Source: Lunularia cruciata (Eukaryota > Streptophyta > Marchantiopsida > Lunulariales > Lunulariaceae). From it: 64,000 nucleotides of DNA. The DNA lies in NCBI GenBank assembly GCA_948567375.1, contig OX419762.1:26045465-26109464 (forward strand). The letters run 5' to 3'. The position numbers and the translations under genes were made by a program. Shown one piece after another: positions 6,101-56,830 of this stretch (position 1 is the stretch's first letter; each line of letters opens with the position of its first letter). Below the pieces are notes generated by a model that was given only the letters and a program-made list of their open reading frames with translations, ran no database searches and was not told the DNA's origin.

Positions 6101-6632
6101 TGCATGAGTTTCTCAAATTCACCATGACTCACAGTTTTAAGGATTGCCCAAGAGCAAAAGCAAAGTTGGTGTTAATTCTTGGTTTGCTTATATATTTCAT
6201 GATACAAGGTTTGTTGTTAAGGAGTCAAAGGTGGAATGGCTACCAAAAGCAAAGGCAAAGAAAACTCTTACTGTTGACAAGAAGAGTGGGCAACATTTTA
6301 TCAGAGGAACAAAGGTAGATAAATTTGAGAAGAGATTGAAGAAGAAAATTGAAGAACAAGGTGCTTATTTTATCTCGTATGATGGTATGAGGGGAGAGTG
6401 GAGGTTTCAAGTGAAGCACTTCAGCAAATACAAGTTGGATGACTTTGACAAGGAAGAAACTCCTCAACAAGGGTTGAGCAAGGAGCTAGTTCTTTTGGGA
6501 AATGACATGATGGAAGATGTGGAGGAGGATTTTGAAGATCTTCCACCAAAAGGTCTTGACATTGGTGAGGAAGCTATGGAGGTTGATGAAGATGAGGAAA
6601 GGTATGATCAGATTCATAATGTTGCTTCCTAA
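6100..6632 (+). pseudogene. Gag D C-terminus with NUP98 autopeptidase-like segment
   Basis: After a knuckle-like HSFKDCP motif (~6130-6150) comes SWFAYIFHD. The frame then runs to a segment at about 6340-6465 that matches the C-terminal signature of the NUP98 autoproteolytic domain (peptidase S59): EEQGAYFISYD, GEWRFQVKHFSKYKLDDFD. NUP98 cleaves itself at HF|S in this signature; the HFS is present at about 6417-6425. An acidic tail follows (EDVEEDFEDLPPKG). Only the C-terminal part of the domain is clearly recognisable. I infer that a host NUP98 piece was fused to Gag, perhaps for self-cleavage. Chance similarity is unlikely, given both blocks in correct order and spacing. Confidence 0.6.
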
Positions 6633-7064: not shown

Positions 7065-8433
7065 TGTCACGCCATTTGTAGTTCCGCATCCAGTTGCTCG
7101 GACACTGGAGTTCCAGTGATGGTAGTTAGAGTTATTCTAGCAGTTTCTCAGGGACTACTTTCCGACGGTTAGATTTTGTGTTTGGGGTACTGACTTCACG
7201 GTGGGGCCCACCGTCACTTTGCACCGTTTGCACCATTTGCACCGTCGAGTGTGCCGTCAGCGGGACCGTTAGGGTTTCAGGGCTAGCTCGAGTCCAGGGG
7301 TATAGTTTCAAAGTGAGCTCCAAAGAGCTCACTTCTCTGATGTTGAGCCTTCGAGTTCCTGGCTATGGTGGACAGAGGCCGGCGAGCGTCACCTGGATTC
7401 TCTATGCTTGAGTGGGTGTGGCTTGACTGTAATCAGTGCCCAGTTGTTGGCAGTTTATAGAGTGACAGATCAAGTACTGATCTGAGTTGAGTTGAGTTGA
7501 GAGTGTTAAGCAATCTGATTACATCAGAGAAGTGAAGTCAGGGGGAAATCGGGTGCAGGAACGTTGAGTGTTGGTGGTATCTCCAAGCTTGGTGGATCAT
7601 GGTAGCTCGATTCAGGTTCTGTGTTTCCCTAGTGTACAGAAGCTCGTGTAGTTGATGCAAATTTGGCAGTTAGGCGGACGGTGTGCGGAAGCGCTGGCCA
7701 ATTTTCGAGCAAAGAAGGAGCAATTTTCGAGCAGTGTTGTGATTTTGAGCTCAGGAGGTGAAGGCAGGACCAATTTGCTGCGAGTTGGGCTCAGAAAGTG
7801 AAATTGAAGGTGGAGTTGGAAAGCTCTTCTCATGAAATTGTGATTTAGAAAAACCCGTTTTGTCAATTTGGCTCGAGTGGAAAGTTAGCGGGGGATTTGG
7901 CGGACATCCATCTTTAGGGTTTACGTCAGATTTTACGTCAGATTTTTGGGCCAGAATTGGAGGAGTTTCGCTGTTTGGCCAGATTTGGAGAAGTTTCGCT
8001 AGTTTGGAGGAGTTTCGCAGATTTGGAGAAGTTTCGCCAATTTTGGAGGAGGTTCGAAGTGGCAACAAGAAAGGCCTCATTTGGCTGAATTTTGGCATTT
8101 TGAGGCATAGGGCTGTGGGCTATGAGAGGCTACGAAGGCCTAGAAGGGCCAGCAAGCCAGCTTGCTGGCGTGAGGCTAGCTAGTTTAGTGTAGATCTTGG
8201 TCATTGGTTGGCAAAATCTGCCTTTCTTGCTAGATTGTGCGCAACAGGGTTTGACCCCTAGATCTCTTGTTCCTAGACTGGTGCCCTAGCCAACTGGTCC
8301 ATCCTTACTTGTTGTCATAGTGACTGTGCCACTGTTATCTATACACATGTAGCTTTGGCTAGGAGAGGCAGTTTGATCCCATTCTTGGTGATCCTGGTAG
8401 CTTAGGACTTAGATACGAACTACTCTTATGTCA
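7065..8433 (+). repeat. 5' LTR of element A
   Basis: The start TGTCACGCC is supported by homology to the A' LTR, which breaks off at the same base. The end is placed at TTATGTCA (8433), just before AATGCCAAATGG; ATGCCA at 8440 is the alternative. It contains a CpG-bearing short tandem repeat at 7957-8057 and a doubled TTACGTCAGATT at 7921-7945. No ORF is supported in it. A TATA box is not obvious. Confidence 0.6.
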
Positions 8434-8442
8434 AATGCCAAA

Positions 8443-8457
8443 TGGTGGCAGAGTCAG
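8443..8457 (+). other. Primer-binding-site-like sequence of element A
   Basis: TGGTGGCAGAGTCAG follows the LTR end and is identical in A' (minus strand, near 46112-46126), though the surroundings have diverged. It resembles the initiator-tRNA-Met PBS TGGTATCAGAG with two changes. Conservation in both copies supports a PBS; the tRNA identity is uncertain. Confidence 0.45.
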
Positions 8458-8869
8458 TCCCGTGTTGTGTTATGAGATGGAGGGTTTTCGTTTAGATTTC
8501 TTATGATTGGATCCCCTCCATTCTCTGCTTCCTGTTTGTGCACCACGTTTGTGTGAGGTGCCTTGACTTTTGAGCATTGGTGCTCTGGTGTGCTCTCGGT
8601 GGTGAGGCTGGAGTGATGACCAGTCAGACCACCTTTGTTTCTCTCCGGTGAGGCAGGAAGTGATGACCTGCAGACCGTGAGAGTGCGTGTTATGATGGCA
8701 GGTTACAGGTTGCCCTTCCCCTAGTGCAGTTATCTCGGTTAGAGTTACATTAGTGGGTGGTGTTTAGTTAGTGTTGGCACGCGGTGGTGTTGGCACTTGG
8801 TGGGGTACTTGCGGTTGCGACTTGCGGTTGCAGTTGGTGGTTTGGGTTTGCTGTTGCAGTTACATGGTC
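8458..8869 (+). other. Leader between PBS and Gag of element A
   Basis: Untranslated leader. The gag frame stays open back to about 8771, but only GTG codons precede the ATGs at 8864 and 8870. Residues after 8870 (MTEFFGD) are conserved in A' (MTKFFGD), so I place the start at 8870. Nothing else is seen here. Confidence 0.45.
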
Positions 8870-10458
8870 ATGACGGAGTTCTTTGGAGATTCCAGAGGAG
8901 TTAGCCCTGCAGTATGCAGTGGGTTTACTCGGAGTGGTGCTCGGTATCAGCTTGTATCTCAGGTCCCAGTGAGGGAGGAGATTGACTCTGAGTTGGAGTT
9001 CGACACAGGAGCTGATTCAGTTGAGAGTGCACTTGGTGTGTCCGCACCGTTGTTGTGGGACATGGACGAGATTTATGGGGCCTCTAAAGGCCCTAGGCGT
9101 TACTCTGGTACAGTGGGTACCATTGAGTTGGATGACTTCATCCAGGAGTTCGATAGTTGGTGTGATCTGCAGCAGATGCGGAACCCGACTTTGTTCACAC
9201 CTTTCATGGCATGGAAGGGGTTGTTTCAGCACTTGGAGGGTCCACCGATGGATGATTACCATGAGTTCCAGAGAGCTCATTTGGAGGAGATTGAGTTATG
9301 GAGACAGTATTGGTCTCCACACTATGTCTCCATCACTTCAGGCTCGGTGGCCAGGAGTAGATCGGCTGTACCCACGAGTTCTAGCTCGAGTAGTGTTGGT
9401 GGAGCTAGTGGAGGTGCACTAGCTAGAGATAGTGCTACTACGAGTGGAGGTACCGCTGCAGGAGGTGGTGTGGTACCGGGGTTTAACCCCATGGTGGAGT
9501 TCTTCCTATGTTTGAGGCAGAACTACCAAGGAGTGCGGACTGACAAGCTGAGGAGCTTGCAGGAGTTCTAGCGGAAGGCTGGAGAGAGCCTACGCGAGGC
9601 ATATACTTGCATGAGGCGGCTGATCAGTTTCATTCAGGGAGTTACTGAGGCCCAGGCAGTCCAGTTTTGGTATGGGATACTGGATAGGGAGTTGCGACGT
9701 AGAGTTCGTGATACTACATTGTTGCAGGCTACTTCGCCCACTTTGGCAGTAGTCTTTGGTTTGGCTGAGCGTATTGAGCTCAACATGGTGGAAGAGAGAG
9801 TGGTGACAACTGGATTTGGTAGAGAGACCTCATCCACGGTTGTGACTTCTTCTAGAGTGCAGCAGAGTGCACCACGCCCAGTTGGTTTTCGAGGACAGGG
9901 TGGACAGCCCAGATCCTATGGAGCGAGTGGAGGGCCTAGTGGAGTTAGACCCTTACCCTCATTTTCGGGTCAGCAGCAGCCAGTGAATGGTGGTGTTGCT
10001 TGTTGGACTTGTGGTGGACCTCACCATAGGAGAGAGTGTACTCAGGGCAGCGGACCTGATACCTCTGGTGCATCACAGCCAGCACAGAGGCAGTGTGAGC
10101 ATTGCCACAGATTTGGTCACACTAGTGACCGGTGTTTTGACCTACACCCGGAGTTACGGAGTGGTAGGGCTGCTATGGCAGGTAGTAGAGGAGCTCCAAT
10201 TCATGGAGGACGAGGTGGTAGAGGTGGTGGTAGAGGATCTACACCTAGTAGGGGTGCAGTACCTGCCCTTACTTCTGACACAGCTATGGCTACTCGGATT
10301 GAGCAGTTGGAGCAGAGATTGGCTAGTATGGCTATTGCTCAGAGGAGATCAGATTCGGGTGCTGAGGCTTCCACCTCATATGCTGGTGATAGAGATGCTT
10401 TGGACTTCATGTGCGGAGCAACACAGGTGGATGCATCTGCAGCAGTGACTAGGAGTGC
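8870..10458 (+). pseudogene. Element A Gag
   Basis: Capsid-like region at 9020-9790 (LDDFIQEFDSWCDLQQM; then NPMVEFFLCLRQNYQG; then AQAVQFWYGILDRELRRRV), with the first stop at 9569. A Gly/Gln/Arg-rich stretch leads to two zinc knuckles at 10001-10135: CWTCGGPHHRREC, slightly off the standard spacing, and CEHCHRFGHTSDRC, a perfect C-x2-C-x4-H-x4-C. An RGG-like segment follows (GGRGGRGGGRG, ~10205-10245). It would assemble the particle and bind element RNA. Confidence 0.8.
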
Positions 10459-11044
10459 AGTACGTGCTCCAGAACCTAGAGGAGCATCAGTGGAGTTGGA
10501 CCCACAGAGAGGAGAGGTTGGGAGACAGGTCAGACTTCCCCAGTCTTTCACGCTATTTGAGGCATTGAAGACGACATCCATGGTTCCTAGACGTCCCAGT
10601 GCAGGTCTGGTAGGTGGTGATGGAGTACCTGATGGAGTACCTGCTAGTCAGCCACCTGCTACTACACAGACTGAGTCTAGCATGATGTTGGGGGCGGCTC
10701 AGCTGATTATGCGGCATCCTTTATTTTCAGCCAGTGACATGTTTACATTGGGAGTGGACCCAGCCCCAGTGTTCCGGTTGGCTGCCACGTTGTGTGAGAG
10801 TAGGAATGGTGCAATTCCTACTACTAGAGCAGAGGTGGTTGGTAGTGGAGCTGACTTGGTTGAGGAGCATGGGATCCGTTCAGCGACCAGTGGTTTATGG
10901 CAGGCAGCAGCGGCTAGACTGGAGGAGTTGCCAGCTAGACCGGCCTTTGAGAGAGCGCGGTTTACACCTGGTGTTGTCCTATTGGATAACCAGAGGGGGA
11001 TCTTTCGTTTGGTGGGACCTTCAAGGAAGGTCTATACACCATAG

Positions 11045-11653
11045 AGAGTCTTGTTAGACTCTGGTGCGCAGCCCTTTATGTTGGGGAAGGCTGCAGTTGT
11101 TGGTCTGGAGTTACGGAAGACCAATGTGGAGAGGTGTCCATTTCAGATCCAGACATCTCCTGGTGGTGGTTCGACACAGTACACCACACGTGGAGAGCTT
11201 GTTGTCCAAGTTCAGCCTGGTTATCCGACTGATAGCTCGGTGGTGAGAGCTTAGGCTATTGCGACGATAGCTGAGTCATATGATGTGCTAGTTGGGGGAG
11301 CAGTGTTATACCCCATGGGTTTCAGTATTGACTATTGGGAGGAGACAGCCTCTTATAGACCTGGTTGGCAGTCTGGTGAGGGACGGGTATGTCGCCTACC
11401 AGTACGTTTCAGTAGTGGCAGTCTTGGCTCACTACAGTCCGGGACCATGGCAGCATCAGTTTTGGCTTTCAGCGGTGCAATTACTTGGCCTGGTGACTTG
11501 TTGGAGGGGAACGCCCATGCAGAGGATACTCCAGTACCAGAGGAGATCACTCGGCTATGGAGTACGAGTGGGATTGTTCCATCCACCTTGGATGTTCCAT
11601 TGTGGAGTTCAGAGGAGGCATTGCAGCAGCATGCAGATCAGTTGGTGCAGTAG
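11045..11653 (+). pseudogene. Element A retropepsin-like protease
   Basis: Right after the stop at 11042 the frame shows the catalytic triad region LLDSGAQPFMLG, with Asp at 11057-11059, followed by the flap region. Then comes YDVLVGGAVLYPMGFSIDYW, in the place of the second conserved motif (ILG-like, here VLVGG). Stops at 11252 and 11651 break it. It would cleave the polyprotein. The region 10459-11041 between the knuckles and the protease has no recognised fold. Confidence 0.7.
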
Positions 11654-11719
11654 GCTTGGAGTGGAGCCTTCGTACCATTAGGGGATGAGTGTGAGGATGA
11701 GCCTCCAGAGGCAATTGCT

Positions 11720-12736
11720 TTGACACCTCTGGATACCACACTCATTGCTTGGCAGTACCCAGTAGAGGGGATATGCCTATTGGAGTTGTTTGGTGGGATC
11801 AGCACCGGACTAGCTGCGGTGTTACAGGCGGGTATTCGAGTACAGAGGTACTTGTATGTAGAGAGAGATGAGACTGCTAGGCGAGTCTCTCTACATCATG
11901 TGGCACACTTGGCCTATCGGTATCCGGAGTTATTACCGATGTCAACAGTCAGAGGCTACCAGAAGGCCTTACCAGGAGACATTTCCTTACTGGGGGCGCA
12001 TGACCTAGAGAGACATGGGCCTGTTCACTTGGTGATTTCTGGATGGCCATGTCAGGGACATACACGTGCGGGCCACGGTTTGGGTCTTCAGGATCCTTGT
12101 TCTGGTGTGTTTTGGGAGATGTTACGGATACTACAACATCTCCAAGTTCATCAGTCTGTTTCTCCAGCTTACCTTTTGGAGAACGTTCCATTGATGGGTG
12201 ATTCTCACACTAGAGTGGTGGCGAGTACACATCAGGTCCATTCTTGGATGGGACCTGCTGTATTGTTAGATGCAGCCAGAGTGGGATCACGGGCTCATCG
12301 TCTTTGTCTTTGGTGGACGAACCTTTTACCCATAGAGGTTCTACAACGTAGTTATGATGGGATTGAGCGACTAGACCACATTCTTGTTGATGATATCTTG
12401 GATGTTGGACGTCAGTCTCAGACAGTGGTAGTGGCTGATAGGTCACCTATGGCAGTGGTGAACCTAGTTGGATAGCCTAGAGCTGCATTTCCCACACTCA
12501 TGAGTTTCCCAGGCTCTCATGCTTTTTGAGAGGGAGGACCTAGACTTGTTTGGGACTCACAGTTACAGCAGTTGGTGGAGCCCAATGATGATGAGAGAGA
12601 GCGGGCGATGGGTTTTTGCACCGGTATTACCGCTGTTCCAGCAGTGTTAGAGGCATCTAGGCATCAAGTGTTAGGTCAGGCTATGGACCTGAACTGTTTG
12701 ACCTGGATTGTGAGCCTTGGTTTGGCAGAGCAGCGT
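11720..12736 (+). pseudogene. C5 cytosine DNA methyltransferase domain inside element A
   Basis: The motifs of C5-cytosine methyltransferases appear in canonical order. Motif I: LLELFGGISTGLAAVLQAG (~11780-11835), with the SAM-binding acidic position in YLYVERDE. Motif IV: SGWPCQGHTRAGHGLGL, with the catalytic Cys codon at 12050-12052. Motif VI: LLENVP, Glu at 12179-12181. Motif VIII-like: AARVGSRAHRLCLWWTN (12274-12324). Motif IX-like: ERERAMGF (~12593-12616). Motif X-like: RHQVLGQAMDL (~12659-12695). The target-recognition part between VIII and IX is short (~70 codons). Stops at 12473 and 12527 hit only that part. It would methylate DNA at C5, possibly the element's own cDNA. Motif I resembles DNMT3-like enzymes, but PCQ in motif IV differs from the PCN of DNMT3/DRM, so the subfamily is open. 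Confidence 0.87.
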
Positions 12737-13054
12737 AGGATGCACTTGGTAGGCATCACCACTCGGACACTTGTGAGCCCTGTGCCTATCGAGACGATTC
12801 AGGCACATGCTGGGGGCGATGGACCGAGTGGACATGGTATTCTTGGGACACATCCAGTAGCTACTAGGGAGAGTGGTCTACTTGGAGTCCATCCAGGTGA
12901 GCATGGGCTACTTGGATTACACCCTTGGTCCACATGGGATGCAGCCAGAGGACGTATGGAGCTTGCAGCCAGAGTAGAGGGAGTTTTTCACACAGAGGTT
13001 GGGACCTCTAGTGGTCGGGAGCATGACACCATTGCTCCCAAGGGCCCAGTGTAG
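12737..13054 (+). pseudogene. Linker between DNMT and RT in element A
   Basis: A low-complexity linker in the same frame, with repeated GILGTHP, GLLGVHP and GLLGLHP units (12838-12930), ended by TAG at 13052. It probably separates the methyltransferase from the RT and may hold a protease site. No known domain. Confidence 0.5.
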
Positions 13055-14164
13055 CAGCCAATCAGTACGTCTTCCACTCCTACTACAGTTACAGAGGATA
13101 CTTGGGAGCCAGATCTTGGACCCAAGCTTACTGGAGAGGAAAGACGGAGGGTTTGGAGGTTCTTGAGGAGTCACACGAGTTGTTTTGCCTTCAGTATGAA
13201 GGATTTGGGTGCTCTGAAGGGACCTGGTATACGGATTGAGCTGACTAGCGACACACCAGTTTTCTGACGTCCTTATCAATATAGTGATATGGAGAGGACA
13301 TTGATTCAGAGCCGGAGTAGTGACCTTTTTGAGGCTAGTTTGGTGGAGATTTCACATGGAGAGTATGCATCAGCGACAGTGATGCCAGCCAAGAAGGATA
13401 TGCATGGCAACTATACAGATAGGCGGATGTGTGGAGATTACCGTCCTATCAACCGACAGACTAGGGCTGATTGGTTTGCCATGCCTACACCGGAGGAGAT
13501 TTTTGATGCGATTGGGCATGCAAAGGTCTTCAGTACTTTGGATCTTCGAGCGGGATATCATCAGTTGCCGATCAGGGAGGAGGATAAGTCCAAGACAACA
13601 TTTTGGGCTATTGATCCTCATGGCAAGGATGTGTTATATCAGTGGAGGTTCTTACCATTTGGGTTGAAGAACGCTCCTGCTGAGTTCCAGAGGGTCATGG
13701 ATAGGATCCTAGCTGGATTGGATTTTGCTCGGTGCTATATTGATGACATTTTGGTTTATAGCACTACTGTGGAGGAGCATGAGAGACAGTTGTTGGAGGT
13801 GTTTGAGAGGTTGAGATCTCATGGACTCAAATTACATCCGGGGAAGTGTAGGTTCTTCCATGAGCAGGTTGAGTATTTGGGTCACACTATCTACCCCGGA
13901 GGACTTGGTGTTCAGCAGACCAAGGTGGAGGCTATTGCACGTATTCCTCGGCCTACGGATGTGAGCAGAGTGCGAGCATTCCTTGGGTTGGCGAACTTCT
14001 ATCGCCGCTATGTTAGAGGATTTAGTGCCATTGCCAAGGCCTTGACGAAGCTGACCAAGCTTACACAGGAGTGGTGTTGGGGAGATGAGCAGGAGAGAGC
14101 TTTTGTAGAGCTCAAGGAGAGGTTGACATCTGCTCCTATTTTGAAGAGACCGATCAGGGGATGA
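13055..14164 (+). pseudogene. Element A reverse transcriptase
   Basis: Clear Ty3/gypsy RT: MCGDYRPINRQT, FSTLDLRAGYHQLPI, FLPFGLKNAPAEFQRVMD, the catalytic YIDDILVYS (13736-13762), and FLGLANFYRRYVRGFS in the thumb. TGA at 13265 lies just before the RT core (context VF-stop-RPY) and TGA at 14162 lies at the RT/RNase H border. All catalytic residues are present. It would copy the element RNA into cDNA. Confidence 0.92.
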
Positions 14165-14905
14165 CCATTTCAGGTTCACACTGATTGGAGTATGTTGGGG
14201 CTTGGAGCGGTGCTCACCCAACATGATGATGAGGAGAAGGAGTTTGTGGTGGCCTATGCTAGTTGCTCCAACAATTCAGCGGAGGTAAAGTATAGTTCAT
14301 ATGAGGGAGAGTGCTTGGCAGCAGTTTGGGCAGTAGCACATTTCCGATGTTACCTGTTTGGTAACCCCTTCACTCTCATCACTGATCATCAGCCGCTGAA
14401 GTGGTTGATGGAGTCCGACAAGCTTTCAAGGAAGCTTGCACGATGGGCTCTGATTTTACAGGAGTATGATTTCACGGTTGTTCACAGACCTGGAGTGGTG
14501 AACCGTGATGCAGATGGGTTGAGTAGAAACCCATGTCCCAGCCAGCAGGATCAGACCGGAGCACGTTGGCATGGTGAGACAGATGAGGAGATGGTGCCAG
14601 GTTGGCATGCATCAGCCTTTCTGTGTATATTTGCAGAGACATTGGTGGTATCTCTCTCAGCGCATACAGGAGGAGTTATTAAGGTCACAGATCCAAAGAG
14701 TGAAGATATTGGTACAGTTCAGCGAGACATTCATGATGATGTCTTAGTGATGGACTATCTTCGCACTGGTGTTGTGGGTGGCACAGTTGGGGCCAAGGAG
14801 AGAGACCGTGTTCTTCAGCGAGCCAGACGGTTCAGATTGGAGGGTAGACACCTTTTGCGTGTATGGGAGGATGGTAGAGTGAGAGTAGTACCACTTCCAT
14901 CATAG
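14165..14905 (+). pseudogene. Element A RNase H
   Basis: Gypsy RNase H motifs: FQVHTDWSMLGLGAVL (Asp of the active site in HTD), YSSYEGECLAAVWAV (catalytic Glu), and LITDHQPLKWLM (Asp). The tether ends RDADGLSRNP. After that, 14540-14902 is a connection region with few motifs. TAG at 14903 separates it from integrase. It would remove RNA during cDNA synthesis. Confidence 0.88.
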
Positions 14906-16027
14906 AGACCACAGTTGGTCCGTCATGCTCATGAGGAGCTAGGACATTTTGGAGTAAAGCGTACATATAGCTTACTTCAGAGTCATTATTGGTGGCGTGG
15001 TATGCAGACCGAGGTACAGCAGTTTGTTGCCAGATGTATGGTTTGTGACCAAGTTAGGGCATCATTCAATGCTCCTACGCCACAGTTACACCCATTACCT
15101 ATCATGGGATTGGGTTACCGTTGGAGTTTGGACTTTGCCGGACCTTTACCGCTGACTGTGAGACATCATCGGTATGTTTTGGTGATGGTGGAGCACTTCT
15201 CCAAGTGGATTGAGTTGGTGGCACTTCCTGACAAGTCTAGTGAAGGGACAGCTTACTCGTTCCTGGATCGAGTTCTTAGTCATTTTGGTGCACTAGCTAA
15301 GGTTTTGACTGATCAGGGTACAGAGTTCTTGGGAGAGTTTCAGGTCTTGTGTGACAAGGCTTTGATTGATCATCGTACTACATCCCGAGATCACCCTGAG
15401 GCAGATGGCTTAGCAGAGAGAGTGGTTCAGACGGTGAAGAGAGGATTGCGAAAGTATGGTTTGCAGAGAGGCCACTTGGGAGATTGGGATCTCCAGTTAC
15501 CTTGGTTGGCCATGGGCTATCGGTTCAGCCGGCAAGCCTCCTTAGCATCTTTCTCTCCATACTTCCTACTCTATGGACGAGATCTAGATTTACCTGTAGC
15601 CATTCGTCGAGATGCTACTATAGTTTTGGACTTGGATGACCCCGATGTATGGATGAGCGCATGTTCTCAGCGGGCAGAGATCTTTCGGAGAGTGATGCCG
15701 ATGGCCTTTGAGAACTTGGCGATTGCTCAGCATAGAGATACTTTACGCTATGCTACCATTCGAGGAGGAGGTTATAGACCCTCGATCCGTCGATTTCATC
15801 CAGGCGACTATGTATATCTACAGCAGACAGCACCGACAACACTTGATGTTTCTACGGGCCGCACTATCTTGAGAGTGCGTGAGGTTTTGCCATCTGGAGT
15901 CCTTGTGTTAGAAGGACGTGATGGTGTTGTTTGGAAGGATCATGTGCGCAATTGTGCGCCATGTCACCTTCCAAACATTGATGGTACTATGGACCCAAGC
16001 TTGGCACTTGTACGTACAGGCTTGAGG
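14906..16027 (+). pseudogene. Element A integrase
   Basis: HHCC zinc region (HEELGHFGVKRTY, then CMVCDQVR; 14930-15062). Core with D,D,E: Asp in WSLDFAGPL (15131-15133), Asp in VLTDQGTEF (15311-15313) and Glu in DGLAERVVQ (15416-15418). The C-terminal part has GDYVYLQQTAP and VLVLEGRDGVVWKDHVRN in place of a GPY/F module. No chromodomain is seen; a PHD finger takes that position. This part has no internal stop. Confidence 0.9.
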
Positions 16028-16162
16028 TGTATGTTATGTGGCTCTTCTGGTGGAGCTGCTACTATGTTAGTGTGTGATAGCTGTTTGAGAGGATGGCATA
16101 TGGCATGTATGACTCCTCCCCTCACGGTGGTTCCTCAAGGACAGTGGTTATGTCCTAGATGT
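16028..16162 (+). pseudogene. PHD finger at integrase C-terminus of element A
   Basis: Perfect C4-H-C3 pattern: C-ML-C, then 10 residues, C-DS-C, LRGW, H-MA-C, then WLCPRC at the end; first Cys codon 16028-16030, last 16160-16162. The conserved Trp two residues before the last CxxC is present. PHD fingers read the histone H3 tail. By analogy with the integrase chromodomain of chromoviruses I infer that it could steer integration to a chromatin state. The sequence around it (GLRCMLCGSS...ATMLVCDSC) is typical of plant PHD fingers. Terminal TGA at 16166. Confidence 0.9.
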
Positions 16163-16168
16163 ACGTGA

Positions 16169-16440
16169 CCTATAGCTAGTTCATTCTTTATATGGTATAG
16201 ATTGCAGACAAGCGACTAACGATGGGGCTCCATAGCACCCGGCCTCCTGATCTTTGCCCATTAGAGGGTATACCATATACTTAGAGTAGATGGCTATCTG
16301 GAGTTAGAGGGACCTAACCGCCAGCTAGGGGGGCGATTGTGGCACTTTAGAGTCTATGTATGACTTATGTGTGAGTTGTGCTTCTATAGTGTATGATGTT
16401 GACAGCGATGTATGTTGTGTAGCGATGTATATACGCACGA
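16169..16440 (+). other. 3' non-coding end of element A with purine tract
   Basis: A PPT-like AGCTAGGGGGGCGAT sits at about 16323-16337 and is followed by TGTGGCACTTTAGAG (16338), which could be the first bases of the 3' LTR. It matches the 5' LTR start (TGTCACGCCATTTGTAG) only weakly, so I do not call a 3' LTR. The element ends at about 16440 against a B LTR. That is the right breakpoint of the proposed inversion. Confidence 0.4.
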
Positions 16441-18366
16441 CAAGGTTAGCACTCGCCATCTCTGCTTTCTTTTACTGCAACAACACCAATAGTGGACACA
16501 TGACCTTTGATAGATACTCCACTCCATTGTACTTCTTGTCATTGGCCCAGACTTCATCTTCCTCTACATGTAACTCTCCTACTTGCACCTTACCCAAAAG
16601 TCACAATCTTTGTACCTTCAAGGTTTCCCCATCCAAACTCACCTCCTCTTTTGTGGTGACTTTGTTGGGCCTCACCTTGGTTGCATGCACACTTCTCTTC
16701 CCCTTGGCAGTTCTTGGACATGCCAAGACTCCTTCTTCTTCCTTCTTCTCACACCCTCGTTTGATAGTGGACACCTCTTGACTCGGCTTCCTTGTATCCA
16801 TACTCCATCTTCAGGTTTTCTGAACCTCCGCCTTGCCTTCACTGCCACTACTTGATTCTTCATTTTGCAATGTTAACTCTTCTTCTCCTCCAAAAGCTTC
16901 TTCCTTTGACTCTGTTTCTCCTTTGGACTCCTCTGCTTCTTCCAAAGTCAATTCCTTTGCTTTCACCACCACTACCTTTGGGTTAGGCTTTTTCATCTTC
17001 TATGGTTGTATTGCCACAAGGCAACTTTCAGGCTTAGTTCTCTTCCTTGCCTTTGAGATGTCAACCGCTACAGTTCTCTCCTTCCTACTCTTCTTGTAGT
17101 ACTCGTCTCCTTCTCGCACTCGCTCCATATAATATTGTTCATCCGCATCCGCTTCCTTGCATAGATCTGGATACAAGTGCAATCACATTTGATTTCTCTC
17201 TTCCAAAGTTAGTAAATTCAGCCTAAAGTAGAAATGAGCTGCAAAGGGCACAAATTAATGTGGTTGCATGTCCATCCTCCAACCCAAAATCATCTACCCC
17301 ACTTGTTGATGCAGACATATTGCCCAGTCTATTGCCTCTCCTACTGACATTTGTTGAAAGAACACCACCTATTGCATTGTGACATAGGTAGTTCACTCTG
17401 GCTTGAACATTTCCATCATCGCGCTTACAATCCTTCTCCACTCGGGGTCTCTATAGCTATCCACTTTATACCCATTCTTGGTGTGAGGTTGATTGAAAGA
17501 ATTTCTCACCTCGGCAATCTCTTATGAGGCATCACAATTCCAATAGGAGGTGGTACCTCTTATCTCTCCTGCTTCTCTCCCTAGGACTATTCTCTAATCC
17601 AACTCAGTCCATCGAGCCAGATTTCTTCTCTTCTCCTTTTGCTTTGGCCCATCCTTGCAATCACTTGGTGTGATTTCTGCCATGAAACCTGGAAAACTGA
17701 AATTCCAATTCCAGTCCAAGAACATGATACAAAGTCTCACTACGACCTTGATCTTGGCCACTACATCTAATCTACACATTGCAAGTCCTCTCACCATACT
17801 CTGCTTACTTTTGGAGCCATTGTGTGTTTCTTCACTCTTCTTGTGGAAGATTGTTCTCAAGATCCTAACCCACTCTTCTTCTTGCAAAATTGCAATTTGC
17901 ATTACTTTGGGTTGACTTTGAATAGGGACATGATAACATTTGGACATTGTGCTGCTTCCTTGCAAAATTCTTGATTTTATAGTCCTTTGCTGATTGGTCA
18001 TTCTTCAGTTGCTTCTTTGCTCTAGTCACCAATTCTGTGAGGTTGTTTCTTATCATTATCAAGAACTTCTTGATCTTGAAGTTTTCACTTTCTTCCTGCA
18101 TACTTTCTTGATTGTCAAACCCCAAAGAAGTTTGTTATAGGTTCTTTGGATCAGGCTACGCTACCCAATACAAAGTCCCTTTCTTCATCCTTCTCTCTTG
18201 TCCATCTCGGGTCCTTTGGACTTGACCCAAAGTTGACTTAGGGTTTGGCCCAAACACATACTTCTTTGCATTTTCCTTCCTGTTTAGCCCTCCTTCGGCT
18301 TTACTAATGTACTTCTTCGTCAAAAATTTATGAAACCCATCAAAACCAAAAAATGTGTGTACCACA
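16441..18366 (-). mobile_element. Partial family B LTR (L2), U3 end intact
   Basis: On the minus strand it begins with the terminus TGTGGTACACACA at 18366 and runs into the LTR ORF, where it is cut at 16441. Homology with L1 (1651-3367) is clear over 16441-16860 against 2690-3100. Its right neighbour is the second half of the split LTR, which starts AAGTC at 18367. Like L1 it shows only the U3 terminus. Confidence 0.7.
16443..17947 (-). pseudogene. Family B LTR-internal ORF, N-terminal two thirds
   Basis: An ATG at 17947 (minus) opens with MSKCYHVPIQSQPKVMQIA, matched in B3 from 60493. Conserved blocks follow: QEEEWVRIL, MFLDWNWNFSFPGFMAEI, GYKVDSYRDPEW, AHFYFRLNLLTLEERNQM, YMERVREGDEYY, then an acidic Ser/Glu-rich stretch (~16811-17000). 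Several stops interrupt it and the coiled-coil end is lost. No similarity to a known family comes to mind; the WNWNF block is the best search handle. Confidence 0.5.
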
Positions 18367-33411: not shown

Positions 33412-34152
33412 TGTAATACCAAGGGTCAACCATATGATCTAGATGTGAAATTTGGTTTGGTAACATCTAGAATGATATTATACATGATGGTCAAAATAGA
33501 TCAGATAGAAGTGTCACCAAAAGAGTACTTCTACAAATAGGACAAAAACCAAAATAGACTTGAGAACCTTAGAACCAATAGCTAGACATATGATTTAAAG
33601 GTGAGAATTGGTTTGGTAACATCTGGAAGGATGTTACACATGATGGACTAAACAGATCAGAAAGAGGTGTCACCAAAAGAGGACTTCTACTAATAGAGTA
33701 GGAACCAAAATATGCCTGAAATCTTTGAAGGCAATTTTGGAGGCCTAAACGGATGAATTAGGCCTTGAAAATGTGCATATTCCTCCCCCCCAACGTTTGA
33801 AAGGCTGGACTTCCCTTCCCCCTGGTTTGTCTTGTCAAGAGCTTTCCAATGATACCTTACTCATGTGATTCTGAGATTCCTATAGGAAGATTCCCTAAAA
33901 GATTCCTTCCGGTCAAAGCTCGTTTGACCAACCAGATAGGACCTAGACCAAACAAGTCACCCATCCAATTAAGTAATCCAAGGGTGGAGTTTGCTGACAT
34001 GTCACCTATCTATGTCCCTAATCCTATGGTGGAGCTTCCTTGGAGGAGATCCTCTTTGTCTATATAATAAAGAGAAGGTGCTCCCTTGGGGCATCGAATG
34101 TTTGAGTGTGCAATCTATGTTTTCTCTCTTCTCTTGTCCTTGGAGTATTACA
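33412..34152 (+). mobile_element. Solo LTR of family F
   Basis: 741 bp, TGTAATACC...GGAGTATTACA, matching the reverse complement of the two LTRs of element F (49983-50706, 55263-55998). TSD AGTGC at 33407-33411 and 34153-34157. It sits in the B1 3' LTR, so it is younger than B1. It formed by LTR-LTR recombination or loss of the internal part. No coding content. Confidence 0.92.
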
Positions 34153-42629: not shown

Positions 42630-42979
42630 TTCATTGAGTCTCTCCAAATCTTGCACCCCAGCAAGGAAATGTCTATTGGAAGGGTCTTCTGGTAACCCTT
42701 GACTGTTGACATTGACAATAACTCAAGATACCGATAGGCCAAGTGTGCCATATGATGTAAAGAGACTCACCTAGTAGTTTCATCTCTCTTCACCTGTAGT
42801 ACCGCAACTAGTCCAGTGCTAATCCTACTCAACAACTCCAATAGACATACTCTCTCTACTGAATACTGCCAAGCAATGAGTGTGGTATCCAGAGGTTTCA
42901 AGGTAATCAACTCTAGAGGCTCATCCTCACACTGGTCTCTTGGTGATACAAGGGCTCCACTCCAAGCCTGTTGCACCAA
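42630..42979 (-). pseudogene. A' DNMT, N-terminal remnant
   Basis: PLDTTLIAWQYSVERVCLLE, then LLSRISTGLVAVLQ, which corresponds to motif I of the A enzyme with FGG changed to LSR, and a deletion removing the segment before the acidic SAM-binding position (VKRDETTR). DNA homology continues to about 42630, well before the catalytic PCQ. It shows that the DNMT already belonged to the family before A and A' separated. Confidence 0.7.
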
Positions 42980-43269
42980 CTAATCTGCATATTGCTGCAA
43001 TGCCACCTCTAAACTCCACAAAGGAACATCCAAGGTGGATAGAACAATCCCACTTGTACTCCAAATTTTAGTGATCTCCTTTGGTATTGGATTATCCTCT
43101 ACATGGGCATTCCCCTCCAATAAGTCATCAGGCCAAGTCATAGAACCACTAAAAGCTGAAACTCAACCCACCATGGTCTCAGATTGTAGTGAGCCAAGAT
43201 TGCCACTACTAAAGCATATTGGTAAGCAACATACTTGTCCCTCACCTGACTACCAACCTAGTCTATTGG

Positions 43270-45740
43270 AGGTTATCTCCTCTCAATAGTCAATATTGAA
43301 ACCCATGGAGTACAACACTGCTCTCCCAACTAACATATCATATGACTCAACCACTATTGCAATAGCCTAAGCTCTTAGCACAGAGCTATCAATTGGATGA
43401 TTGGGCTGAATCTGAATAACAAGCTCTCCACATGTGATGTACTATGTAGAACCACCACCTAGAGATGTTTGGATCTAAAATAGACACCTCTCCATATCAC
43501 TCTTCTGTAACTCCAGACCGACAACTACAGCCTTCTCCAACATAAAGGGTTGTGCACCAAAGTCTAGTAAGACCCTCTGTAGTATATAGACCTTCCATGA
43601 AGGTCCAACCAAACAAAAAATCCCCCTCTTTCCATCCAATAGGACAACCCAAGGTGTAAACCATGCTTGCTCAAAGGCTGATCTAGTTGGCAACTCCTCC
43701 AATCTAGCCGCTATTGCTTGCCATAAACCACTAGTTGTTAAGTGGATCCCATGCTTCCCAACCAAATTAGCTCCACTATCCACCACCTTTGCTCTATTAG
43801 TAGGGACCACGTCATCCCTATTGTCACAAAGCATGGCAGCCAACCAAAACATTGGGGTTGGGTCAACTCCCAATGTACACATGTCACTAGCTGAGAATAA
43901 TAGAAAGTGCATAATCAGCTGAGCCGCCTCCAACATCGTGCCAGACTCAGTCTATGTAGTAGCAATGGCTGACTAGTAGGTAATCCATCATGCATCCCAT
44001 CACCATCTACCACACCTACACTATGACGTCTAGGACCCATGGATGTTGTTTGTAGTGCCTCAAAGAGTGGAAAAGATTGGGGAAGTTTGACTTCTCTACT
44101 TGTTTTTCTCCTCTTTGTGGGCCAAACTCCACTAATGCTCCTCTAAGCTCTAGAGCACGTACTGCACTCCTAGTCACTACGGTAGATGCATCCACTTGTG
44201 TTGCTCCGCACATGAAGTCTAAGATGTCTCTATCACCCGCATATGAGGTGGAAGCCTCAACACCTAAATCTAATCTCCTTTAAGTTATAGCCATGCTAGC
44301 CAGTCTATGCTCAAATAACTCAATCCAAATAGCCATGGTTGTATTAGAAGTAAGGGCAAATACTGCACCCCTACTAGGTGTGGATCCTCTACCACCTTGT
44401 CCTCCATGACCTAGAGCTCTTCTACCACCTGCCATAGCAACTCTACCACTTCATAACCTTGGGTGTGGGTCAAAGCATCAATCATTGGTGTGGCCAGATT
44501 TGTGCCAATGCTTACATTGTCTGTATGTTGGTTGTGATGCACTAGAGGTATTACGTCTACTATTCTAAGTGCATTCTCTTTTATGGTGAGGTCCACCACA
44601 AGTCTAACAAGCAACACTACCACTCAATGGCTATTATTGACCCAAAAATGAAGGTAAGGGTCTACAATAAGCCCTTGACTTCCTCCATAGGATTTGGGCT
44701 ATCCACCCTATCCTTGGAAACCAACATAACATGGTACACTCTACTACACTCTAGAAGAAGTAAAAATTGTGGATGAGGTTTCCCTACCAAATCTAGATGT
44801 CACCACTCTCTCCTCCATCATATTGAGCTCAATATGCTCAGCCAAACCAAAGACCACTACCAAAGTAGGCAAAGTAGCTTGTAACAATGTAACATCATAA
44901 ACTCTACATTGCAACTCCATGTCTAGTATCCCATACCAAACTAGACTGTTTGTGCCTCAATAACTCCTTGAGTAAAACTGATCAGCCATCTCGTGCAAGT
45001 GTATGCCTTGCATAAGCTCTCTCTAGCCTTCCATTGGAACTCTTGCAAGCTCCTTAGCTTGTCAATCCGTACTCCTTGGTAGTTCTGCCTCAAACACTAG
45101 AAGAACTCCACCATGGGATTAAACTGTGATACTACACCACCTCTTGTAGTAGTAACTCTACTCATAGTAGCACCATCTCCAAGAGATCCACCAATGTTAC
45201 TAGAGCTAGAACTCATAGGTACTGCCCATCTACCCCTAGAAATTGAGCCTAAAGTAATGGAGATATAGTTTGGAGACCAATATTATCTCCATAGCTCAAT
45301 CTCTTCCAAGTGAGCTCTCTTGAACTCATGGTATTCATCCATTAGTGGACCCTCCAAGTGCTGAAATAACCCCTTCCATGCCATGAAGGGTGTGAACAAA
45401 TTTGGGTTCCACATTTGCTGCATTTACACCAACTATCAAACTTTGGATGAAGTCATCTAACTCAATGGTATCCACTATACTAGAGTAGCACTTGGGGCTT
45501 TTGGAGGCCCCATAAATCTTTTCCATGTCCCACAACAACAATGCGGACATACCAAGTGCACACTTAATTGAATCAGCTCTTGCATCAAACTCCAACTTAT
45601 TGTCAATCTCCTCCCTCATTGGGACCTAAGATACAAGCTGATATCAAGCACCACTCTGAGTAAACCATTTGCATACTATAGTGCTCTCTTCTCCAAAATC
45701 CCCAAAAAACTTTGTCATGACAAAGTAACCAAGAACTATA
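43270..45740 (-). pseudogene. A' Gag and protease remnants
   Basis: Pieces in shifting frames. MTKFFGD-like start near 45725; MREEIDNKLEFDARADSIK (45619 down); CGATQVDASTVVTRSAVRA (44213 down); LIMHFLLFSASDMCTLGVD (43936 down); then RVLLDFGAQPFMLEKAVV, where the protease DSGA is DFGA. The zinc knuckles are degraded (44410-44620). Useful as an independent witness of the ancestral Gag start and order. Confidence 0.65.
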
Positions 45741-46117
45741 ACCCGCAACTAGAACCACCAAAAGTATCCCACTACAAATCACCACCACCTTCAAGTGCCA
45801 ATACCACCAACTGAACATCACCAACTAATGTAGCTCTAACTACAACCACTACACTAGAGGAAAGAACAACCTATAACATGTCATCATCATGAATGTGCAT
45901 GTTATCACTTCTTGCATCACCAAAGAGAAACATAGGTAATCTGATTGGTCATCACTCCAGCCTCACTACCAAGAGCACACCAAAGCACTAATGCTCAAAA
46001 GTCAAGGCACCTCACACAAACATGGTGCATAAACAAGAAGTAAAGAATGGAGGTGGTCCAATCACAAGAAATCTAAACAAAAACCCTCCATCTCATAAAT
46101 CAACACTAGACTGACTC

Positions 46118-47485
46118 TGCCACCATTTGGCATTTGATATAATAAGAGTTCTCTACTTCCTAAGCTACCAGGATCACCAAGAATATGATCAAACTATCTC
46201 TCCTAGCCAAAGCTTCAAGTGTATAGATAACAGCAAAATAGTCAATAGGACAACAAGTGAGGGTGCACCAAATGGCTAGGGCACCAGTCTAGGAACCAAA
46301 GATCTAGGGGTCAAACCTTATTACACAAAATCTAGCAGAGTGGACAGATTTTGCCAAACAATGAACAAAATCTACTCTAAACTAGCTGGCCTCACGCCCG
46401 CAAGCTAGCTTGCTAGCCCTTCTAGTCCTTTGTAGCCTCTCATAGCCCACAGCCTTATGCCACAAGACCTCTAAATGCCAAATGAGGCCTTTCTTCTTGC
46501 CACTTTGAACTGTCTTGCCACTTCAAACCCTCTCCAAATCTAGCAAAACTCCCCCAAATCTGACCAAAATTTGACGTAAGTTCCAGCAAAAATCTGACAT
46601 AAAATCTTACATAAATCCCTAAAGTTGGCTGACCGCCAAATCCTCCACTAACTCTCCACTCAAGCCAAATTGAAATGACAAGTTTCTCCAAATCATAAAT
46701 TCAGGGAGATGGGTTCCCAACTCCACCTTTAATTTCACTTTTTGTGCTCAACTCGCTACAAATTGGTCATACTTTCACCTCTTGAGCTCAAAATCATAAC
46801 TATTGCTTGAAAATTGCTTCCTCTTTGCTCAAAATTTGGCCAGCGCTTCCACACATTGTCTGCCTTACTACCAAATCTGCATCAATCAAATGAGCTTCTA
46901 CACACTAGGGAAAACCAAAACCCCGATCAAGCTACCAACGATAAGCACAAGCCGAGATACCACCAACAACTTAGAGATACCACCAACACTCTTAGTTCTT
47001 GCACCCTATTTCCTCTTGACCTCACTTCTCTGATGTAATTAGTTTGTTTACATAACTTGAATTACACTCAATCATATCAGTACTTGATCTATCACTCAAT
47101 AATCTGCCAAAAATTAGGCATTGATTACAATCAAGCCACATCCACTCTAGCTAAGAGTATGCAAGTGACGCTCGCCAGCCTTTGTCCACCATAGCCAAGA
47201 ACTCAAAGGCTCAACATCAAATAAGTGAGCTCTCTAGAGCTGCACTTTGAAAGTATACCCCTTGGACTTGAGCTAGGTCTCAAACCCTAATGGTCCCGCT
47301 GACGGCACACCCAATGGTGGGAACCGTGCAAGTGATGGTGGGCCCTACCATGTAGTCAGTACCATGAACATGAAATATGACCGTCACCAAGTAGCCTATG
47401 AGTAACTACCAAAATACTCCAGACTACCAACACTATTACTCTAGAGTCCAAGCAATCTAGGTATGATGCTACAAAGGGCATGACA
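46118..47485 (-). repeat. 5' LTR of A'
   Basis: About 1.37 kb, aligned to the A 5' LTR through shared blocks such as GTGCCGTCAGCGGGACC (47290 region) and AATGGTGGCAGAGTCAG just past its end. The homology with A ends at 47485, which fixes the LTR start of the family at TGTCA. Confidence 0.65.
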
Positions 47486-49982: not shown

Positions 49983-50706
49983 TGTAATACTCCGAGGACA
50001 AGAGAAGAGAGAAAACACAAATTACACACTCAACATTCGGTGCCTCAAAGGAGCACCTTCTCTTTATTATATAGACAAAGAGGATCTCCTCCAAGGAAGC
50101 TCCACCATAGGATTAGGCATACATATAGGTGATATGTCATCAAGCTCCACCATTGGATTACTTACTTGGATGGGTGACATGTTGGTCTAGGTCCTATCTG
50201 GTTGGTCAAACAAGCTTTGACCGGAGGGATCTTTTAGGGAATCTTCCTGTAGGAGTCTTAGAATCACATAAGGTATCCTTGGAAAGCTCTTGACAAGACA
50301 AACTAGGAAGGAGGGAAGGCAAACCTTTCTTGTGTTGGGGGGGAATTGCACATTTTTGAGACCTAATTCATCCGTTTAGGCCTCCAAAATTGCCTTCAAA
50401 GATTAGGCATATTTTGGTTCCTACTCTATTAGTAGAATCCCCTTTTGGTGATACTTCATTCTGATCTGTTTATTCCATCATGTGTAACATCCTTCCAAAT
50501 GTTACCAAACCAATTCTCACCTTTAAATCATATGTCTAGCTATTGGTTCTAAGGTTCTCAAGTTTATTTTGGTTTTTGCTCTATTAGTAGTACTCTTTTG
50601 GTGATACTTCTATCTGATCTATTTTGACCATCATGTATAACATCATTCTAGATGTTACCAAACCAAATTTCACATCTAGATCATATGGCTAGCTTGTGGT
50701 ATTACA
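49983..50706 (-). repeat. 3' LTR of F
   Basis: 724 bp, TGTAATACCACAAGC...GGAGTATTACA on the minus strand. It contains TTTATATAGACAAAG-like TATA sequence: on minus, the CTATATAATAAAGAGAAGG stretch near 50062-50080. Paired with 55263-55998. Confidence 0.9.
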
Positions 50707-50719
50707 GACCTCCCTCCTT

Positions 50720-55262: not shown

Positions 55263-55998
55263 TGTAATACTCCGAGGACAAGAGAAGAGAGAAAACACAG
55301 ATTACACACCCAACATTCGGTGCCCCAAAGGAGCACCTTCTCTTTATTATATAGACAAAGAGGATCTCCTCCAATGAAGTTCCACCATAGGATTAGGCAC
55401 ATAGATAGGTGATATGTCATCAAGCTCCACCGTTGGATTACTTACTTGGATGGGTGACATGTAAGTTTAGGTCCTATCTTGTTGGTCAAACAAGCTTTGA
55501 CTAGAGGGAATCTTTTAGGGAATATTCCTATAGGAGTCTTAGAATCACGTGAGTAAGGTACTATTGGAAAGCTCTCAACAAGACAATCTAGGGGGGAGTG
55601 AAGGCCAGCCTCTCTTGTGTTGGGGGTAAATTTGCACATTTTTTAGGCTTAATTCATCCATTTAGGCCTCCTAAATTGCTTTCAAAGATTTTAGGCATAT
55701 TTTGGTTCCTACTCTATTAGTAGAAGTCCTCTTTTGGTGATACTTCTTTCTTATCTATTTATTCCATCATGTGTAACATCCTTCCAAATATTACCAAACC
55801 AATTCTCACCTTTAAATCATATGTCTAGTTATTGGTTCTAAGGTTCTCAAGTCTATTTCAATTTTTGCTTTACTAGTAGAAGTATTGTTTTAGTGATACT
55901 TCTATCTGATTTATTTTGACCATCATGTATAACATCATTCTAGATGTTACCAAACCAAATTTCACATCTAGGTCATATGGCTAGCTCGTGGTATTACA
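55263..55998 (-). repeat. 5' LTR of F
   Basis: 736 bp, TGTAATACCACGAGC...GGAGTATTACA on minus; matches 49983-50706 and the solo LTR 33412-34152. Confidence 0.92.
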
Positions 55999-56639: not shown

Positions 56640-56830
56640 TTTGGGTAAGACATCTAAGAATAGTCAGTCCCAAGATGGGAAGTTTATCATGAAAGCAACC
56701 ATTGAGCAAGTTTTGAAGAAAGATAAGTCCCAAGATGGGAAGTTTGTTAATGAAGCAACCATAGAGCAAGCTTTGAAGGAAGATAAGTCCCTAGATGGGA
56801 AGTTTGTCAATGAAGCAGCTTTAGAGGAAG
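56640..56830 (+). repeat. 60-bp tandem repeat in E2 coding region
   Basis: Three imperfect 60-bp units, each encoding DKSQDGKFVNEATIEQALKE or a close variant. They lie between protease and RT. Tandem expansion in a linker, in frame. Confidence 0.75.

Follow-up and report, generated by a model that had tools for sequence, protein, structure and literature searches.

Organization of the element

The window, that is, the whole stretch of 64,000 nucleotides of Lunularia cruciata DNA that was analysed, carries a Ty3/gypsy retrotransposon in which a DNA methyltransferase (DNMT) domain sits between the protease (LLDSGAQ, from 11051) and the reverse transcriptase (RT, 13289 on), together with a second, older copy on the opposite strand. 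The features are given below in window coordinates, A and B being the repeats at the two termini.

7065-16442, plus strand: Ty3/gypsy element (window copy), recognized by its domains and termini
7065-7520, plus strand: repeat A, the left terminus, beginning TGTCACGCC; the alignments of 9 of 9 copies selected by their DNMT end at the same base
7301-7304, plus strand: TATA sequence inside A
7329-7343, plus strand: putative self-primer source inside A, from sequence complementarity
7521-7535, plus strand: putative primer binding site for self-priming, directly after A, from complementarity to A
8768-13051, plus strand: ORF1 (Gag, protease, DNMT), from frame reading; the first Met lies near 9062 in copies L037 and L038
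11045-11480, plus strand: aspartic protease-like region with the LLDSGAQ motif, right edge approximate; another copy is 64% identical here to Marchantia protein P0092
11720-12740, plus strand: DNMT3-type C5-cytosine methyltransferase domain, from PF00145, PDB sequence profiles and an AlphaFold model with Foldseek
13052-13054, plus strand: in-frame TAG followed by CAGCCA, a putative leaky stop between DNMT and RT, from the comparison of 23 copies
13055-16168, plus strand: ORF2 (RT, RNase H, integrase, PHD finger), in the same frame as ORF1, from Pfam
13289-14161, plus strand: reverse transcriptase (PF00078, 3.8e-32)
14192-14470, plus strand: RNase H (PF17917, 2.1e-31)
14915-15400, plus strand: integrase zinc-binding domain and DDE core (PF17921, 5.6e-16; PF00665, 4.3e-12)
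16028-16165, plus strand: PHD finger at the integrase C terminus (PF00628, 2.4e-10)
16323-16335, plus strand: polypurine tract ending GGGGGGCG and abutting B, read in the window and in other copies
16336-16442, plus strand: repeat B, the right terminus, ending GCACGACA, with no A2-B2 after it; flanks ATGT/AGGT, an imperfect 4-bp duplication
42638-47485, minus strand: second, older truncated copy starting at the A terminus, 80% identical to 7065-12014

The order of protease, RT, RNase H and integrase, with an integrase of the DDE (rve) type, is that of Ty3/gypsy elements, and the PHD finger that takes the place of a chromodomain at the integrase C terminus sets the element outside the chromoviruses. 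The window copy is dead: ORF1 contains stops at 9569, 11042, 11252, 11651, 12473 and 12527, ORF2 is broken at 13265, 14162 and 14903, and Gag, protease, DNMT and ORF2 are thus all affected. The TAG at 12473 and the TGA at 12527 cut its DNMT between motifs VIII and X, and in the older copy the match to the element stops within the DNMT.

Elsewhere in the window, a C-terminal piece of a host Nup98-type autopeptidase domain (PF04096, 1.4e-10) was found in an open frame at 6144-6629 amid retrotransposon sequence. Tandem repeats of 156 bp and 60 bp occupy 33431-33712 and 56666-56817, the former having inverted relatives near 50410-50707 and 55698-55998. An Rfam search of the 64-kb window gave no matches.

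Identity of the methyltransferase domain

The initial annotation had described a gypsy element with its own C5 DNMT, the motifs of which stand in order in one frame between protease and RT, and the results uphold this description. In the single frame that begins at 11720, the C5-methyltransferase motifs I, IV, VI, VIII, IX and X occur in canonical order: motif I as LLELFGGISTG (from 11777), motif IV as GWPCQGHT with the catalytic Cys codon at 12050-12052, motif VI as LLENV with the Glu codon at 12179, motif VIII as SRAHRLCLWW, motif IX as FPTLMSF, and motif X as NDDERERAMGF followed by LGQAMDLNCLTWI, ending at about 12740. The PCQ and ENV residues are retained in most aligned DNMT relatives. 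A Pfam search of the domain against PF00145 (DNA_methylase), the profile by which the annotation had proposed to check its claim, gave 29.4 bits in comparison to a cut-off of 22 (E 7.1e-7).

Among solved structures, DNMT3A and DNMT3B are closest in sequence, and as a single-sequence query the domain had DNMT3A as its best PDB sequence (3.3e-9). A profile of 22 sequences, searched against PDB, matched DNMT3A with 2.2e-15, the plant methyltransferase chain 4onj with 8.2e-9, DNMT2 with 9e-6 at best, DRM2 with 2.8e-5 and HhaI with 6.7e-5. When the domain of another copy was modelled with AlphaFold (mean pLDDT 77.5, pTM 0.82), the best Foldseek match was DNMT3A 8tdr_A, with E 5.9e-16 and TM scores of 0.62 (query length) and 0.80 (target length), and DNMT3 or DNMT3 complexes made up 50 of the 50 matches listed. 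The domain at 11720-12740 is thereby confirmed as a C5-cytosine methyltransferase, of DNMT3 type by its closest fold and sequence match. A chance occurrence of the motifs is ruled out by the PF00145, PDB sequence, profile and Foldseek results. The domain is also distinct from DRM, since motif I precedes motifs IV, VI, VIII and X and the rearranged order is thus not present, and the host DRM gene (L026) is a separate one.

An enzyme of this fold could in principle have RNA as its target, either the element RNA or tRNA, as C5 enzymes such as DNMT2 do, and DNMT2 structures do match the profile. The same profile, however, prefers DNMT3 by nine to ten orders of magnitude, and DNMT2 is not among the Foldseek matches listed, so that we consider methylation of RNA very improbable.

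Copy number and the two reading frames

The assembly (565.8 Mb in 74 contigs) was searched with a DNMT query of 251 residues, and 150 of 11,936 first-look candidates were scored. All 150 listed copies are full-length matches with 94% to 100% identity; a stop lies inside the DNMT match in 53 of them and none in the other 97, as counted by eye. Exact A/B junctions number 1,996 genome-wide, solo units included, and exact junctions in which B is followed by two bases and then A (B-nn-A) number 775, the control with the reversed pattern giving 0 in both cases. In seven copies the divergence between the first and the second A (A1 and A2) was 0.007 to 0.034 substitutions per site, and these copies are thus young. 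The window copy therefore belongs to a young and large family and is not a single exotic copy.

Positions 8768 to 16168 make up one continuous reading frame across ORF1 and ORF2, divided by the stop at 13052. All 23 distinct copies examined have TAG here, followed in 22 of them by the CAR-YYA context, L036 being the exception. UAG-CAR-YYA is a context of leaky stops that are read through, and readthrough of the UAG-CAG-CCA stop would yield an extension with RT, integrase and PHD finger. Since the copies owe this stop context to common descent, their agreement amounts to about a single observation. An uninterrupted ORF1 of 1,428 codons ending at the 13052 stop is present in L037 and L038, two copies chosen by the length of their listed frames. 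Open frames of up to 1,448 aa among the 150 copies are compatible with an ORF1 end at this position but are no proof of it, since a frame may start late. Recoding of all stops of the window copy was ruled out: in the compared stretch, the stop at 13052 alone is present in every copy examined. The stop at 11651 recurs in L029.

The Marchantia protein P0092 likewise ends shortly after the DNMT. The annotated Marchantia and Sphagnum proteins P0095, P0098, P0100, P0106 and P0112 continue from DNMT into RT with part of the spacer missing, and we take them as spliced gene models; in Closterium P0131 protease, DNMT and RT follow one another in a single predicted protein. In the Lunularia element, the position of the DNMT on the Gag side of the stop suggests that the enzyme is probably made in Gag-like rather than Pol-like amounts.

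Terminal repeats and target duplications

The nine copies selected by their DNMT (eight fetched copies and the window copy) share the same starting base, with TGTCACGCC or a one-base variant of it. Seven of the nine have the arrangement A-coding-B-nn-A-B, including L012, which has an insertion between A2 and B2, while A-coding-B was found in two, namely the window copy and L019/L020. The joint between A2 and B2 reads CTGATT/ATTGTGG, exactly or with one base off in 6 of 7 and 9 of 10 copies of two sets, and L062 is without a normal A/B junction. When 16 A/B sites with no exact B-nn-A match nearby among those listed were read, B was found directly before A in 15, and at the remaining site, L071, a solo A-B unit is flanked by a perfect duplication. 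Among 100 junctions listed, B and A are mostly separated by GC, which gives the palindrome GACAGCTGTC; AC, GT or AT in place of GC resembles what decay in the CHG context would leave of it.

Target duplications were counted by adding to the nine copies ten further ones, taken as the first ten plus-strand B-nn-A entries on contig C1, of which six had both ends found. Of 19 copies tried in total, both ends were found in 15, and four in which the start of A was not found were dropped. The 4-bp duplications are identical in 11 of the 15 copies and agree at 3 of 4 bp in the other 4, in comparison to 0 of 210 identical pairs and 12 of 210 pairs matching at 3 or more of 4 bp in the control with swapped flanks. 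The outermost bases of the integrated element are TG...CA. A alone as the long terminal repeat (LTR) was ruled out, because the duplication lies outside B2 and not at the end of A2. The element thus has the target duplications of LTR elements, with terminal repeats that are split and rotated rather than identical and direct.

Three of the 16 A/B sites, element ends on contig C1 (L079 to L081, near 5815119, 5844275 and 5873443), share an identical 12-bp flank and stand about 29.2 kb apart, as they would after a tandem duplication of some 29 kb of DNA, and may go back to one duplicated stretch.

Replication signals and a possible route of integration

In 8 of the 9 copies, the end of A is followed by 15 bases (19 in one copy) that would pair without mismatch with a stretch inside A, the start of which lies 28 bases downstream of the TATA sequence; L023 has a mismatch in the primer stretch and is without a full match. 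As a control, the longest match was 12 in 20,000 shuffled 25-mers and at most 14 in 712 other 25-mers of one copy. The site abutting A is thus a putative self-priming site, the start of the RNA being placed from the TATA sequence. A tRNA-primed binding site is expected to begin with TGG, and priming by a tRNA 3' end was ruled out at the A boundary because the sequence there does not begin in this way. At the other end, the purine run AGGGGGGCG stands directly before B1, and the stretch from purine tract to B1 is exact in 5 of ten copies and 1 to 4 bases off in the other 5. Since the primer site abuts A and the purine tract abuts B, the LTR used in replication would be B-A (B-nn-A), with respect to which the integrated copies are rotated.

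These observations can be joined in a scheme towards which we lean, if only slightly, namely a self-priming gypsy element with two ORFs parted by a leaky stop and a B-A LTR, which passes through a circle opened within the LTR and the DNMT of which marks the DNA before integration. A Gag-protease-DNMT polyprotein would be made, to which readthrough of the leaky UAG would add RT, RNase H, DDE integrase and PHD finger, and the DNMT would enter the particle in amounts like those of Gag. The folded-back 5' end of the RNA would prime reverse transcription at the site abutting A, and plus-strand DNA would start at the purine tract before B, giving a cDNA with B-A LTRs. Joining of the ends of the linear cDNA would create a 2-LTR circle with an A/B junction, and the integrase would open this circle not at the LTR ends but at the palindrome GACA-nn-TGTC, where B meets A inside the LTR, so that A-coding-B-nn-A-B is inserted with a 4-bp duplication. 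In a variant of this route, A-coding-B would arise from a circle with one LTR or from linear DNA cut within both LTRs; such copies are without the 3' A that is expected to be needed for another round. With its TG...CA ends, 4-bp duplications and DDE integrase, the element is compatible with an ordinary integrase reaction that takes place at a displaced site.

The A-B-A-B form is shared by DIRS elements, for which a different replication scheme has been proposed. In a rival reading, the element replicates like DIRS or Ngaro elements, jumps between two templates, the internal B1-A2 copy and the partial ends, yielding A-coding-B-A-B directly, and its tyrosine recombinase has been exchanged for a DDE integrase; there would then be neither a B-A LTR nor the opening of a circle at an LTR-internal site. 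The repeat order does equal that of DIRS elements as given in the part of the source considered (PMC5890265), and in the 7 DNMT-selected copies with A-B-A-B, B-nn-A occupies an internal position. On the other hand, the stretch resembling a primer binding site next to A and the purine tract next to B are what a B-A LTR would be expected to have. The element also combines the DIRS-type order with an rve integrase in place of a tyrosine recombinase and with 4-bp duplications, which to our knowledge are not expected of tyrosine recombinase elements. We thus consider replication of the DIRS or Ngaro type unlikely.

Selection on the enzyme and possible methylation of the element

Substitutions shared by at least two copies were compared with singletons. 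In the DNMT of 18 copies, the shared substitutions were 39 nonsynonymous to 39 synonymous (5 involve stops) in comparison to 80 to 40 for the singletons (8 stops), with a site ratio of 3.0, and the contrast is modest (Fisher p 0.026). In ORF2 of 9 copies, the shared substitutions were 17 to 21 (2 stops) in comparison to 100 to 47 for the singletons (16 stops), with a site ratio of 3.4 and Fisher p 0.013. Testing the shared changes against the site ratio gave 2e-6 for the DNMT and 1e-5 for ORF2, values which overstate the case because the singletons too lie below the site ratio.

With Marchantia P0092, identity was 71% for the DNMT, 68% and 48% for Gag, 64% for the protease, 59% for the linker and 47% for the tail, so that the DNMT is the best-kept part of ORF1 in this comparison; in two Marchantia proteins RT identity was 66% and 77%, about as well kept as the DNMT. 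For Sphagnum P0112 the linker, at 56%, exceeds the DNMT, at 50%, so that the DNMT does not rank first within ORF1. The DNMT thus seems to be under purifying selection, and the active lineage to have preserved it to much the same extent as RT and integrase. The stops in the DNMT of the window copy and of the 53 listed copies would suit a domain that is a functionless passenger, but such a domain would hardly be expected to show shared substitutions that are less nonsynonymous than the private ones, an identity to P0092 above that of Gag and protease, and PCQ and ENV residues kept in most aligned relatives; we give this reading very little credence.

The window copy has, over about 3.7 kb, 49 private changes at positions where the other copies agree. 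Those of C-to-T type number 19 in CHG, 9 in CG and 5 in CHH, and they are about tenfold enriched per site in CG and CHG, the numbers of sites being taken from L037 and not from the counted stretch. The window copy thus appears to have been methylated as plant transposons are, which is no demonstration of self-methylation. The suggestion of the initial annotation that the enzyme helps the element to hide from host silencing gains no support from this pattern, as the private changes lie mainly at CG and CHG, the contexts that plants methylate.

In L037, L038 and the window copy (7065-16442), CG observed/expected is 0.42 to 0.46 and CAG/CTG is enriched 1.38 to 1.66 times, while the older copy at 42638-47485 and the remaining window are low in both. 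The CG depletion and CAG/CTG enrichment could mark CG methylation of the active lineage or could just reflect codon use.

As for the role of the enzyme, a DNMT3-type enzyme would most likely methylate CG sites of the double-stranded element DNA before integration. The Gag-side position and the proposed circular intermediate point to the cDNA as its target, as de Mendoza et al. proposed, and self-methylation of the cDNA is in our reading the likeliest role of the DNMT. The solved chains that best match the PHD finger are those of CHD4, KMT2D, KMT2C, PHF12 and KDM5B, and by this analogy it is plausible that the PHD finger reads a histone tail during integration. The likeness of this integrase-borne finger to those of chromatin proteins would also suit a DNMT that acts in trans on host chromatin or genes, and a DNMT that damps the element's own rate would recall the slower retrotransposition rate discussed, in the part of the paper considered, by de Mendoza et al. 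(PMC5890265). The position of the DNMT before the stop, however, suggests packaging with the cDNA, and we judge action in trans or damping, instead of marking of the cDNA, to be quite improbable.

Relatives and host

A first protein search gave 91 homologous proteins (best 9.2e-112) and a second one, with 7,999 candidates scored, at least 43. The named relatives come from the liverworts Marchantia polymorpha, M. paleacea, Riccia sorocarpa and Calypogeia fissa, from Sphagnum troendelagicum, S. tenellum and S. fallax, and from two Closterium strains; no tracheophyte, hornwort or Klebsormidium was among the named proteins of the 91 and 43 matches, and a search of viral_contigs gave no relatives. 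The Calypogeia and M. paleacea proteins show the DNMT only, while the DNMT stands beside RT in Marchantia polymorpha, S. fallax, Riccia (the start of RT, by eye) and Closterium. The bryophyte and Closterium proteins that span the region have the order protease-DNMT-RT, and the order RT-RNase H-DNMT-integrase-PHD occurs in proteins such as P0114, P0118 and P0130.

These last three proteins have an extra stretch after the PHD finger with DPWAGTGT-like and TSPWF-like motifs, which we take to recall those of amino-methyltransferases. Pfam at 0.01 gave nothing in this stretch, and elements of this type might bear two kinds of methyltransferase.

Both the DNMT tree and the RT tree separate off the bryophyte type, together with Closterium and the long-branched P0134 (94/90 and 94/95, just below the level that the program marks with a star). 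The RT tree is poorly resolved, its bootstrap not having settled, and both trees gave long-branch warnings for P0131, P0134 or P0130. Of 134 DNMT matches, 36 were submitted for the DNMT tree, which took in 35 of them (P0078 was dropped), the Calypogeia and Diphasiastrum DRMs not being part of it; P0075, P0095, P0112, P0122, P0123, P0126-P0128 and P0133 were dropped from the RT tree for short overlap. In the DNMT tree, which includes no full-length canonical DNMT3, 36 element DNMTs are separated (98/99) from two DRMs and a single DNMT3-like exon of the host, 108 aa long. The simplest reading would be one old capture of a DNMT with a later change of position, and two separate captures are possible.

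The host had been supposed to be a vascular plant. This was rejected on the basis of one gene, the host DRM gene L026, an uninterrupted frame of 404 aa which, among the best 120 of 1,019 matches, is nearest to the liverwort Riccia sorocarpa (63% to 74% identity), followed by Calypogeia, Sphagnum and the lycophyte Diphasiastrum (54% to 56%) and, lower, by other land plants; on this gene the host is most likely a complex thalloid liverwort. A telomere repeat, looked for as a further clue to the host, was not found. Among other host methyltransferases, we read L025 and L028 as DNMT3-like exons and L027 as a CMT-like exon.

Comparison with known systems and implications

That the element is of the kind reported by de Mendoza et al. 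in 2018, a work cited by the initial annotation, agrees with the finding of a DNMT3-type DNMT in a gypsy polyprotein here too. In the part of that work considered (PMC5890265), KnitGypsy-Dnmt3 of Klebsormidium nitens is likewise a gypsy element with a DNMT3-type DNMT without domain rearrangement in its polyprotein, under purifying selection, and with DIRS-like A-coding-B-A-B repeats the mechanism of which is left unexplained. The host is an alga there and a liverwort here; the UAG, the 4-bp duplications, the self-primer, the PHD finger and the rotated B-A LTR are unmentioned for KnitGypsy-Dnmt3 in that part of the text, and K. nitens has fewer copies than Symbiodinium (PMC5890265), in comparison to about 2,000 junctions for the Lunularia element. 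SymbioDIRS-Dnmt3 of dinoflagellates also has a DNMT3-type DNMT in a polyprotein with RT and the A-coding-B-A-B order, but with a tyrosine recombinase instead of a DDE integrase it belongs to another retrotransposon class; as far as the same source was seen, retrotransposon DNMTs, SymbioDIRS-Dnmt3 among them, methylate CG de novo, and methylation of the cDNA was proposed by its authors (PMC5890265).

The putative self-priming layout, seen here as complementarity in 8 of 9 copies, resembles that of the Tf1/Sushi and Tcn1 chromoviruses, Tf1-type self-priming having been predicted, in the part of the source seen, for Tcn1 elements of mosses and club-mosses (PMC6317226). Those elements carry a chromodomain, whereas the Lunularia element has a PHD finger, a DNMT and a rotated form of integration.

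For the proposed opening of the circle, the nearest parallels are the IS3 family and foamy virus, where a DDE enzyme acts on a circle junction whose spacer is only a few bases. The junction of the Lunularia element would differ in lying inside a retrotransposon LTR and giving the integrated form. As far as the sources were seen, IS3-family transposases act on circle joints (PMC3219604), and the integrase of foamy virus cuts the junction of 2-LTR circles, while retroviral 2-LTR circles are currently described as dead ends (PMC1180852). To us it is a serious possibility, somewhat short of probable, that 2-LTR circles opened at a palindrome inside the LTR are the regular integration precursors of an LTR-type element with a DDE integrase, and that a packaged, Gag-linked DNMT marks the circle before insertion. 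If true, acquisition of DNMTs would have occurred more than once among elements that combine split repeats with circular intermediates, namely DIRS and this gypsy lineage, the reason being that a nuclear circle has to be protected or disguised. Among the titles and beginnings of abstracts seen and in the part of PMC5890265 considered, we found no LTR element whose integrated form is rotated in this way.

Lunularia cruciata has a genome of 580 Mb with bursts of Ty3/Gypsy, according to the part of the source seen (PMC9985172). In the titles and beginnings of abstracts seen, subscription papers and preprints aside, no report of DNMT-bearing elements in bryophytes was found, and PMC6453930, PMC8566409 and PMC10952607 treat, in the parts seen, host DNMT3 only. 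DNMT-bearing transposons are described, in the part of the source seen, as not present in land plants such as tracheophytes (PMC6338049); here they are abundant in a liverwort, with protein relatives in Marchantia polymorpha and Sphagnum. The rotated repeats offer a concrete and checkable mechanism for the DIRS-like repeats of Klebsormidium, hint at an unusual mode of integration, and bear on the old question of 2-LTR circles as integration precursors. Because relatives exist in the model Marchantia polymorpha, the case of a silencing target that carries a silencing enzyme becomes a testable question in a tractable plant.
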